Shown: piece by piece, positions 3,530 through 49,561 of the stretch | Layout of the letters: each line of letters opens with the position of its first letter | Numbering within the stretch: the stretch's first letter is position 1 | NCBI GenBank assembly: GCA_021821045.1 | Contig: JAKACW010000027.1 | Coordinates: forward strand, 1 to 57,244 | Source: Pseudomonadota bacterium | Lineage (GTDB): Bacteria > Pseudomonadota > Gammaproteobacteria > JAADHS01 | DNA length: 57,244 nt | Direction of reading: 5' to 3' | Translations under genes and position numbers: made by a program | The notes under the pieces: generated by a model | Seen by the model: the letters and a program-made list of their open reading frames with translations, nothing else | Databases searched by the model: none | Told to the model about the DNA's origin: nothing

Positions 3530-3560
3530 TTGTAGCGTTTGTGAAAAACACGTGTATAGT
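3530..3560 (+). promoter_or_regulatory. Probable promoter of the cold-shock gene, with a long leader
   Basis: A TATAGT -10 element lies at 3555-3560, with a weak -35 candidate TTGTAG at 3530-3535 (19-bp gap) or TAGCGT (16-bp gap). The predicted start near 3567 gives an untranslated leader of about 125 nt before the GTG start codon. Long leaders are known for cspA-type genes, where they act as RNA thermosensors. The gap 3358-3691 is AT-rich and holds no other gene. Confidence 0.45.
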
Positions 3561-3691
3561 ATTGACGTTGCAGTTAAGTTCTTGTAGGTAGATCGGAAGT
3601 TCCTCAGAGTGATTTGGGTGCCCCTCCAGCAGTATCTCACGCAGGACTCAGCTGCATAGTTTGCGTTAATTAATTGAACAGAGGTATTTCC

Positions 3692-3895
3692 GTGATTACA
3701 GGAACAGTAAAGTGGTTTAACGATTCTAAAGGCTTCGGCTTCATCACCCCGCAGGATGGTAGCAAGGATGTATTCGTACATCACTCCGCGATCGTCGGCT
3801 CGGGCTTCAAATCTTTGGCCGAAGGTCAAAAGGTGGAGTTCGATGTGCAGCAGGGTCAGAAAGGTCCGTCAGCCGTAAACGTACGGGCGCTGTAA
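3692..3895 (+). CDS. Cold-shock protein, CspA family
   Basis: This 67-residue single cold-shock domain is an RNA/DNA chaperone of the cytoplasm. It begins [10 protein letters not shown], then RNP1 (KGFGFI, residues 13-18) and RNP2 (VFVHH, residues 27-31), which are the aromatic nucleic-acid-binding strands. It ends at SAVNVRAL, the normal end of the domain. I chose the GTG at 3692 because GAGG lies seven bases upstream and the protein then starts as CspA proteins do; a TTG 18 bases upstream would only add a tail. The gene is monocistronic: a long leader precedes it and a strong terminator follows. Whether it is cold-induced or constitutive cannot be told. Confidence 0.95.
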
Positions 3896-3927
3896 GTCTT
3901 TCGCTCTGCGTATGCAGATTAAGTAAG

Positions 3928-3955
3928 AGCCCCGCGGAAATGCGGGGCTTTTTTT
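3928..3955 (+). terminator. Rho-independent terminator of the cold-shock gene
   Basis: A perfect 8-bp stem AGCCCCGC/GCGGGGCT with loop GGAAAT is followed by a run of T ending at 3955. It lies 33 bases after the stop codon. Confidence 0.95.
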
Positions 3956-46928: not shown

Positions 46929-47732
46929 TCATTGCACCGCGGCGTGAATGCGCAGCACCAGAGACTCATTGCCCCGCGATTGGGTACGGTGAACGATGCC
47001 GCTGCCGCTGGATTGAAACGCTTCCTCCGACGCGCCCAGGGTCACCCATTGGTTCAAGGGGATGCGCAGCGAGGTTTCCATGTTCTGGGTGCGAATGCTG
47101 TGCGGTGCGGCGGGATCCGGCGATTCGCCTCGAACGCGAATGGTCAACTGTACCGTGTCATCGGGCAGCAGCTGCGGCGTGACATGAAACCCCGTGGCCA
47201 GATCGATCCAACCGCTGGATTCCTCGAATATCACGCCGGCCCCCGGTGCGAAGCGCAGTCGCGTGCCTTCGGGAATACGCTGGCCGAACTGGATGTATCC
47301 CGATGAACCTTCGCTTACCATCACTTGCTGACGTACCGAGCCGCCGTCGCGCTCGCCGGTTTTCGCGCCGCGGATCGTTACCGTTCCGCTTGCGCCGCCA
47401 TTGTTGATTACGACTCGGCCGTCGGCGCCCAGCTCGTCCCGCGCGCGATTGTCGTCGTTGACTTGCTCGACCGAAATGATGAAGCGCCGCGCCGGTTGAT
47501 CCAGTTGCCGCACGACGTTTTTGATGTCCTCGATTTGGGCGTCCGTCGCCCGCAGAATCAGCACGTAGCCCTGGCCGCTGACCCCGCCGTCCTTGCCCAC
47601 CAAGGGCCGCACCAACGGAATCATCTCTTGCGCGCTGCGATTTTGGAGCTGAATCTGTTCGATGCGTGTCGCGTCGGCGACGGCGCATATCGGCCACACA
47701 AATGCGAGCGCAACGACAATAAATCTGATCAT
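46929..47732 (-). CDS. Periplasmic protein with a secretin N-type (NolW/short STN) domain
   Basis: The 267-residue protein has a signal peptide (MIRFIVVALAFVWPICAVA). Its first domain, RIEQIQLQNRSAQEMIPLVRPLV followed by GQGYVLILRATDAQIEDIKNVVRQLD, is the secretin N-domain pattern that binds periplasmic partners. The rest is beta-rich (GSSGYIQFGQRIPEGTRLRF, GFHVTPQLLPDDTVQLTIRV), resembling the start of a secretin core, but no pore-forming gate region is present. I infer a secretin-like relative, not a channel. Its ATG overlaps the stop of the upstream gene (ATGA). The REP cluster abuts its end. Confidence 0.7.
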   Translation of the reverse strand: MIRFIVVALAFVWPICAVADATRIEQIQLQNRSAQEMIPLVRPLVGKDGGVSGQGYVLILRATDAQIEDIKNVVRQLDQPARRFIISVEQVNDDNRARDELGADGRVVINNGGASGTVTIRGAKTGERDGGSVRQQVMVSEGSSGYIQFGQRIPEGTRLRFAPGAGVIFEESSGWIDLATGFHVTPQLLPDDTVQLTIRVRGESPDPAAPHSIRTQNMETSLRIPLNQWVTLGASEEAFQSSGSGIVHRTQSRGNESLVLRIHAAVQ

Positions 47733-48238
47733 ATATCCAAGCGCCGAATGTTCGGGTCCGGCTGACTGTGTTCCCACACGCGATCGAAATATTGCCTCAA
47801 CTCCGCGACCCGCGCCGGATCGTTGAAACAGGCCGTGCCCTCGAAGCGATCGCCGTGGGGGCGATGAATGTAACCCCGATCATCGGCGAGCAGGAACGCT
47901 TGGTTGAAGTCCTTGAACATCTCGTCCGGGCGGCGAATCTTGATGAAGGAGGTCAGTTGGTAGGCGAGTTGGATCAAGCGATGTCCTCTTTGCACAACCG
48001 GACCGGAATCCTGCACCAGAATGCGCACCTCGGCCCGGCGGCTGGAGCGGGCCAATTTGCCCACCGCGTCGATAAAGTCTTGCGCGTCATAGATCGCCGG
48101 ATCCAAATTGCGCGTGTGGATCAGCAGACTGCGTTGCGCTTGCTCCGCCATACGCCGTGCGGCGAGGCGGTGCTCCTCGGACGTGGACAGATCGATTCTG
48201 GTGATGGTTTCACCCAGAACGGCGGTTTCCAAGCTCAT
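47729..48238 (-). CDS. DUF7931-like (phospholipase D-related) protein
   Basis: This 169-residue soluble protein has LSTSEEHRLAARRMAEQAQRSLLIHTRNLDPAIYD, a pattern like that of a PLD-fold half. Later segments are VRILVQDSGPVVQRGHRLIQLAYQL, the strand FLLADDRGYIHRPHGDRFEGTACF and a helix to the end. The HxK catalytic motif of PLD is not seen. In related bacteria such genes stand beside acetyltransferases; here the partner is the secretin-N protein, coupled by ATGA overlap. The ATG at 48238 has GGGG upstream. Function is unknown. Confidence 0.7.
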   Translation of the reverse strand: MSLETAVLGETITRIDLSTSEEHRLAARRMAEQAQRSLLIHTRNLDPAIYDAQDFIDAVGKLARSSRRAEVRILVQDSGPVVQRGHRLIQLAYQLTSFIKIRRPDEMFKDFNQAFLLADDRGYIHRPHGDRFEGTACFNDPARVAELRQYFDRVWEHSQPDPNIRRLDI

Positions 48239-48351: not shown

Positions 48352-48467
48352 GGCAAAAAAAAACCCGAACTGCGGAAGGGGGGAAGCAGTTCGGGTTGAA
48401 GTATCCGGTAGTCGCCGACGAATTAGGGGCTGGGGGGGAAGGAAGGAAGATCCGCCGCCGTCTACCG
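48352..48467 (-). ncRNA. Candidate small RNA with C-rich loops
   Basis: On the minus strand, a -10-like TACATT (48478-48473) would start a transcript near 48466. It ends at a strong terminator whose T run is at 48363-48355, giving about 115 nt. No protein gene on that strand leads into the terminator. The RNA is rich in CU: ATCTTCCTTCCTTCCCC, then the terminator loop TTCCCCCCTTCC, both complementary to purine-rich ribosome sites. A consensus CRP-type site lies about 43 bases before the predicted start. Transcription is inferred, not seen. Confidence 0.55.
48355..48397 (-). terminator. Orphan Rho-independent terminator
   Basis: A perfect 12-bp stem (AACCCGAACTGC with GCAGTTCGGGTT) with a 12-base loop is followed, on the minus strand, by nine T. 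It is the best terminator in the window, yet no minus-strand gene precedes it. Confidence 0.88.
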
Positions 48468-48501
48468 TACACAATGTATCGGCCGGCCCCCGCCCCGGGA
48501 G

Positions 48502-48517
48502 TGTGACGGGGTTCACA
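48502..48517. promoter_or_regulatory. Consensus CRP/Vfr-type site
   Basis: TGTGA-CGGGGT-TCACA is an exact match to the CRP half-sites with the required 6-bp spacer, within the 18-bp palindrome GTGTGA..TCACAC. It stands between the candidate small RNA (centre about -43 from its start) and a plus-strand promoter (centre about -80). Confidence 0.65.
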
Positions 48518-48553: not shown

Positions 48554-48582
48554 TTGACGGTACGTTATGTAAAATCAATGAT
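48554..48582 (+). promoter_or_regulatory. Plus-strand promoter for the conserved hypothetical gene
   Basis: TTGACG (48554-48559), a 17-bp spacer and AATGAT (48577-48582) predict a start near 48589, some 170 bases upstream of the gene at 48757. The rest of this gap shows no gene. Confidence 0.5.
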
Positions 48583-48756
48583 TTATGATCTCGCTGCGCC
48601 GCGACCTTCGTTGCGGACTCGTATCGGGGCACAGCCGCGGGCGTGAGGCCGCACCCGGGCGTGACGCTGTGGCCTTGGCTTGGGGAGGGATCGCAAGCGG
48701 CGCGGCCGCGGGCTAATATGGATCAACGTCCGGAACCGATTTTTGGGCTCGCCTCC

Positions 48757-49299
48757 ATGACGCGGAAATCGCCGACTCGACACACGATCAAGATCAACCG
48801 CGCCCCTGTTCTTACTTTGTGGGCGGCGGTCGTGGCCGAACGCCTGGGCTTTGAACATGGCGAGGCATTGACCCTTGGTCGCTCGGTAGCGGGCTTGAAT
48901 GCCTATTCGAAGGGGGTATCACTCGGTCTTTTCACGCCGACGCCTGCCGAGGTCAAGGACAAGCGCAAAAAGCTGCGGCCGAAGGAAACCATCACCGTGT
49001 CGCTGCTGCACCGTGCGGTGCCGGCCGTTCACACTACCGACGGCGTGCGGGCGTTGTCGAAAGATCGGCCGATCGACCCCGCGTCTGTCGAGCGCTATTT
49101 ACAGAGCAAGTTCGGGGCTGGGTTGGGAGACGCCTGGAGCGCCATGACGGAATTGGCCGCCGCGTTCAAACCGAACGAACTCGCCGAGCGGGCCTACGCA
49201 TTGTACGAGGTTTTTCGGCCCACTGTGCCGTCGGGTGCCAAAGGGTGGGGCGCGGCGGGTGAATTGAACCTTGATCAAATCCGTCGTCTCGCGGAGTAG
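48757..49299 (+). CDS. Conserved hypothetical protein, partner of the DUF504 gene
   Basis: This is a 180-residue soluble protein of unknown function. The pattern INRAPVLTLWAAVVAERLGF, then EALTLGRSVAGLNAYSKGVSLGLF, ALSKDRPIDPASVERYLQSKFG and FRPTVPSGAKGWGAAGELNL looks strongly constrained, and I recall similar proteins annotated only as hypothetical. A DNA- or nucleotide-binding role is possible but not shown. The start is uncertain: ATG 48757 or ATG 48718, neither with a clear ribosome site. It ends seven bases before the DUF504 gene, so the two form a unit. Confidence 0.7.
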   Translation: MTRKSPTRHTIKINRAPVLTLWAAVVAERLGFEHGEALTLGRSVAGLNAYSKGVSLGLFTPTPAEVKDKRKKLRPKETITVSLLHRAVPAVHTTDGVRALSKDRPIDPASVERYLQSKFGAGLGDAWSAMTELAAAFKPNELAERAYALYEVFRPTVPSGAKGWGAAGELNLDQIRRLAE

Positions 49300-49306
49300 G
49301 GAGTGC

Positions 49307-49561
49307 ATGGAGCCGATCCAAGATCTTTTGAGTCGCATTCGCTGGGACAGAGCGTTCGGCGCCGGTCGGTTCAGTATTGGCTACTTTGACCGCGTATCCC
49401 ACGCGGTGGTCGTGGTGCCCTTGACCGAGCTGCATTTTTCAAAAGACGACGACTTCGCGTTTGAGTTTCTCGACGATGAAGGGGAGACCCATCACGTGCC
49501 GCTGCATCGCATCCGTGATGTTTACCGCGACGGCCACGTCATCTGGCATCGCAACGGCTAG
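49307..49561 (+). CDS. DUF504 (MJ1316-type RNA cyclic end recognition) protein
   Basis: The 84-residue product is a complete DUF504 domain: MEPIQDLLSRIRWDRAFG, FSIGYFDR, VVVVPLTELHF and the end HHVPLHRIRDVYRDGHVIWHR. The domain is best known from archaea (MJ1316), where it is predicted to recognise RNA ends in repair, often fused to RNA ligases or poly(A) polymerases. Here it stands alone, seven bases after a conserved hypothetical gene. AGGGAG precedes the ATG. Its stop overlaps the end of the convergent histidine kinase by four bases. Confidence 0.85.
   Translation: MEPIQDLLSRIRWDRAFGAGRFSIGYFDRVSHAVVVVPLTELHFSKDDDFAFEFLDDEGETHHVPLHRIRDVYRDGHVIWHRNG

Follow-up and report, generated by a model that had tools for sequence, protein, structure and literature searches.

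Does a strong terminator facing the minus strand, with a CRP-like palindrome upstream of it, mark the gene of a small regulatory RNA, and if so, what would such an RNA do? This question is raised by positions 48,352–48,517 of a 57,244-nt contig (JAKACW010000027.1) of a gammaproteobacterium, the whole of which was analyzed and is called the window here. The original prediction proposed a CRP-controlled small RNA (sRNA) with C-rich loops of the anti-Shine-Dalgarno type. Our analysis indicates that the minus-strand segment 48355–48468 is very probably a real regulatory RNA gene, switched by CRP and made to mask the ribosome-binding sites of mRNAs. The following features were assigned to the locus.

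48502–48517, minus strand: CRP box TGTGAACCCCGTCACA, an exact palindrome centered about 41.5 nt upstream of the predicted start (class II)
48475–48480, minus strand: −10 element GATACA, against GATAAT in the family consensus, at 37 nt from where the CRP box starts, assigned from an alignment of 32 promoters
48355–48468, minus strand: predicted small RNA of about 114 nt, assigned from promoter geometry and the terminator, with a fold of −42.2 kcal/mol
48406–48467, minus strand: 5′ hairpin that closes the 5′ end, about 16 bp long and interrupted by two small internal loops, assigned from unconstrained folds and compensatory changes in homologues
48424–48449, minus strand: C-rich apical loop of 26 nt, CUUCCUUCCUUCCCCCCCAGCCCCUA, the proposed target-binding region, assigned from conservation of the loop core
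48355–48397, minus strand: intrinsic terminator hairpin with the loop UUCCCCCCUUCC and a U run, assigned from folding and a hairpin scan
47729–48238, minus strand: DUF7931 gene, the downstream neighbor (Pfam PF25559, E = 5e-49), starting about 115 nt past the terminator

Read along the minus strand, the CRP box is followed by the −10 element, a start near 48468, the 5′ hairpin, and the terminator hairpin that ends near 48355. The 115-nt segment alone folds with a z-score of −3.7 relative to its shuffled versions. No ATG, GTG, or TTG occurs in any frame of the 114-nt RNA, which excludes a small coding gene. The terminator consists of a 12-bp stem (AACCCGAACTGC/GCAGTTCGGGTT) and the loop TTCCCCCCTTCC, after which a T run follows on the minus strand; the CCCCCC that had been predicted for its loop is present. 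It had also been described as the strongest terminator in the window; it comes fourth by energy among the 61 hairpins that precede runs of at least five T in the window. Among the three hairpins ranked above it, a T run of at least seven is found only in the cspA terminator at 3949 (+). A standard terminator scan does not list the present hairpin because its 12-nt loop exceeds the 8-nt limit of the tool. The cspA thermoregulator itself was detected at 3556–3955 (+), with an Rfam score of 79.7 against a cut-off of 78 and a strong terminator at 3949.

The exact TGTGA-N6-TCACA motif that had been predicted upstream on the minus strand lies at 48517–48502 and is the single exact match in the whole window. 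About one box with at most one mismatch is expected there by chance, so that the box of the window taken alone is weak evidence. When 32 promoters of the family described below were aligned on their CRP boxes, a GATAAT-like −10 element began 36–37 nt from where the box starts in most of them, and this offset puts the box center near −41.5, as expected for class II promoters. A −10-like element is indeed present in the window, though not exactly at the TACATT first pointed out; the hexamer that fits the family is GATACA at 48480–48475, which overlaps TACATT and gives A48468 as the predicted start.

It is through comparison with other genomes that the candidate gained strong support as an RNA gene. 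When 94 genomes were searched at the nucleotide level, the segment was located in both genomes of the same family, with one copy each, and a second copy was revealed on another contig of the own genome; this second copy stands behind purB and has an exact CRP box as well. In G002 and in genomes further removed, the copies likewise lie immediately behind purB, each with a CRP box of its own. A first covariance model was built from four close copies and a second one, R2, from the copies found by the first. The covariance search proposed earlier for related genomes yielded further copies across Gammaproteobacteria. In a class sample of 369 genomes, R2 matched 44 at E = 1e-3 or better, some of them through a separate C-rich RNA linked to polA. 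Among the carriers are Cycloclasticus and a metagenome-assembled genome of Piscirickettsiaceae. When R2 was applied to 78 named PurB loci, 11 matches were obtained, nine of which were on the purB strand within about 450 nt of the purB end, one of these (L047) apparently being the same contig as a training sequence. The RNA is present in only a minority of the 80 loci retrieved with PurB queries.

The 37 matches for which sequence was in hand were examined for a CRP box and for their neighbors, neither of which enters into R2. A CRP box with at most two mismatches was found 25–85 nt upstream in 32 of the 37 (background 1.05%), one with at most one mismatch in 23 (background 0.24%), and an exact one in nine (background 0.2%); L132, L133, and L137, which are polA-type or unassigned, were left among the 37 and lower these proportions. 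A good box is missing in a few copies, namely the middle copies of L004 and L016, the first copy of L024, and L038. The RNA very probably belongs to a family that is spread over many gammaproteobacteria and absent from the Rfam library searched. A search of the open-access literature gave no sRNA described at purB.

The typical order across Gammaproteobacteria is purB, one to three copies of the RNA, and DUF7931; purB lies upstream in 26 of the 37 matches and DUF7931 downstream in 16, in every case on the strand of the RNA. In some genomes the RNA is present as a tandem of two or three between the two genes. Three copies are found at L004:1449–1908 and L016:1501–1957, where the CRP boxes of the outer copies are good and that of the middle copy is degenerate, as if the siblings were being rewired. 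The order is purB, RNA, mutL in G002, and RNA, DUF7931, a secretin-like gene, mutL in the window, with purB and the second copy on another contig. Most simply, the window copy seems to be the old locus (the side of RNA, DUF7931, and mutL) after a duplication or the splitting of a tandem. The gene between DUF7931 and mutL (46929–47777, minus strand) encodes a short secretin-domain protein of 282 amino acids (Secretin_N and Secretin).

Such a neighborhood raises the alternative that the segment is a 5′ leader or attenuator, in which CRP drives DUF7931 and the terminator decides on read-through. DUF7931 is on the same strand and begins about 57–140 nt past the last RNA copy in several genomes, and about 115 nt past the RNA in the window. 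A leader would always stand upstream of DUF7931, however, and this RNA does not: the second copy of the own genome is followed by a convergent histidine kinase instead, and an adjacent DUF7931 is absent in G001, G002, G131, and others. Every copy of a tandem has its own full terminator, no sign of an alternative antiterminator pairing was observed for the RNA, and the conservation of the C-rich loop also speaks against a leader. We therefore consider this alternative very unlikely. Nor do the homologues keep the terminator solely as the tail of some longer mRNA, the finding by which the original prediction was to be refuted.

The CU-rich single strand proposed earlier exists as a pyrimidine-rich unpaired stretch, but it is located in the 26-nt apical loop of the long 5′ hairpin. 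The loop core UUCCCCCC(C)AGCCCCUWA is kept in all four close-family copies, while the stem sequences vary and still pair. In the alignment fitted to the model, which is biased towards the structure, 93.7% of cells were paired compared with 73.4% in shuffles, both-sided changes were found in 16 of 18 pairs, including all six counted pairs of hairpin 1, and sliding the partner by 1–3 columns reduced pairing to about 36–43%. The unconstrained folds agree. For 34 copies folded from their promoter-predicted starts, the 5′ part gave a mean z-score of −3.0, the 5′ hairpin usually closed at or near the first bases, and it usually carried a C-rich loop of up to about 30 nt, with the terminator next. 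Promoter spacing and RNA structure are two separate lines that lead to the same 5′ end. Comparison across genomes supports that this is an RNA gene, that the RNA folds into two hairpins, and that the gene is linked to a CRP box.

C-rich unpaired loops complementary to GGAGG-type sites were predicted in nearly all of the 34 copies. Their sequence varies by lineage, with C runs in some and CUCC repeats in others, so that the orthology of the distant copies rests on locus, promoter, and terminator. At L055, L065, and L084, behind purB, the loop is made up of CUCC/UCC repeats (CCUCCUCCUCUUCCUCCUCCUCC), which amount to an extended anti-Shine-Dalgarno sequence. An RNA that titrates another sRNA or an RNA-binding protein, as a sponge or decoy, instead of pairing with mRNAs could also account for the unusual length of the pyrimidine loop and the presence of several copies per genome. 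Against this, the loops show complementarity to Shine-Dalgarno sequences, the GGA loop motifs that CsrA decoys carry are absent from them, and the C-rich loops of sX13 act through antisense pairing to G-rich motifs (PMC3771888). A sponge thus appears hardly probable to us. It is scarcely credible that a strong terminator and a chance CRP-like palindrome merely coincide, or that the box serves the divergent plus-strand pair at 48643–49561, since box, −10 element, and both hairpins are kept together at the purB locus of other genomes, away from these divergent genes, even though finding one exact box in 57 kb is no great improbability and 48554–48582 contains a promoter-like site on the plus strand. 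This site (TTGACG-17-AATGAT) faces the plus-strand genes, which encode a 218-amino-acid unknown ORF and an MJ1316 domain protein; the CRP box lies at about −80 from it, and a second, divergent role of the box is possible.

A putative mRNA-pairing sRNA of this kind has to be placed among the known C-rich and CRP-dependent RNAs. Searches against Rfam at gathering and relaxed thresholds gave no family at threshold for the RNA in the window or for 20 loci of its family. CyaR (RyeE, RF00112) of enterobacteria is CRP-dependent and pairs with the Shine-Dalgarno region of ompX, using a seed together with a conserved terminator loop (PMC11795201). The resemblance to CyaR noted in the original prediction holds as an analogy of control and architecture, but not as membership. 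The window RNA has another sequence and another 5′ hairpin, and a CRP box at class II spacing is conserved in its family. It gives no match at the covariance cut-off, CyaR is absent from the Rfam matches of the window and the family loci, and the RF00112 model matched none of the 369 class-sample genomes, including the own one, while the E. coli control was matched. The sX13 RNA of Xanthomonas was the second likeness named; in form the likeness is limited to C-rich apical loops, one of them in the terminator. The sX13 RNA is located downstream of polA, has three stems, is reported only from Xanthomonadaceae, and acts with its C-rich loops on G-rich motifs near translation starts (PMC3771888). 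Membership was rejected because the present family lies at the purB/DUF7931 and not the polA locus, and because the RNA forms two stem-loops, C-rich in both loops, not three each with a 4C/5C loop; the CRP box is a further difference.

ErsA/Pseudomon-1 (RF01719) likewise has the stem-loops SL1 and SL2 and a C-rich terminator loop. It was rejected because the window scores 26 bits against a gathering score of 50; in the reverse direction the cross-match is also weak, with R2 at about 35 bits on Pseudomon-1-type loci. ErsA also differs in lying at the polA-engB locus (PMC8575079), and no CRP box precedes the copies examined. The best Rfam match to the window was anti-hemB of Burkholderia (RF02837), which is C-rich and has a similar terminator. 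This candidate was also rejected, as 28.1 bits is far below the curated cut-off of 49.5 and the alignment extends over both the CRP box and the promoter, which means that the two layouts are not equivalent. The R2 hits at polA-engB (L015, L020, L021, L026, L030, L036, and L037) were excluded from the family as a weaker, different C-rich RNA. These loci (about 1501–1610), from several other gammaproteobacterial genomes, contain a polA-linked C-rich multi-hairpin RNA with a strong terminator, mostly in the polA-engB gap, where ErsA and sX13 also reside, and gave no Rfam match at threshold; this RNA may be an sX13/ErsA counterpart beyond the described lineages. In another class of the same phylum, L145:1501–1590 and L146:1501–1587 carry a two-hairpin RNA that has a strong terminator and whose C-rich loops read CCCCUCCCCCUC and CCCCUCCCCUCCC; no CRP box was found at either.

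The reading preferred here, a trans-acting sRNA that is activated by CRP from a class II site and represses translation through C-rich loops, is in our judgement highly likely as a whole. Class II boxes, covarying hairpins, the second copy, and stand-alone copies elsewhere all favor the CRP-controlled, C-rich sRNA originally predicted. The own genome encodes one Hfq and a CRP orthologue with 61% identity to E. coli CRP and the recognition helix SREMVGR (CSREMVGRVLKNLE), from which TGTGA specificity is expected according to established knowledge of CRP. CRP is a carbon-starvation regulator, and G-rich ribosome sites match any C-rich loop. With rising cAMP, CRP bound at about −41.5 would act as a class II activator and bring RNA polymerase to a promoter that, judging from the spacing, has no recognizable −35 element. 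The resulting RNA of about 114 nt would expose the long C-rich loop on its 5′-terminal hairpin and a second C-rich loop on the terminator hairpin. By analogy with CyaR and sX13, we infer that these loops, aided by Hfq or not, would base-pair with target mRNAs at G-rich Shine-Dalgarno or translation-enhancer regions, so that translation of these mRNAs would drop under carbon limitation. Transcription itself, the direction of CRP control, the use of Hfq, the targets, and repression are all inferred.

Riboregulation that depends on CRP and uses an anti-Shine-Dalgarno sRNA is known chiefly from enterics, where CyaR provides the example. The apparently undescribed family at the purB-DUF7931 locus, with its class II CRP box and often in tandem, is likely a carbon-status riboregulator in many non-enteric gammaproteobacteria and a functional counterpart of CyaR, in which the long C-rich loop of the 5′ hairpin is kept while its surroundings drift. 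If this is true, the coupling of cAMP-CRP to translational repression via C-rich RNA would have arisen or persisted more broadly, and there would be an RNA family that can be clearly delimited, carries a constant promoter signature, and can be tested in relatives amenable to culture, such as Cycloclasticus.
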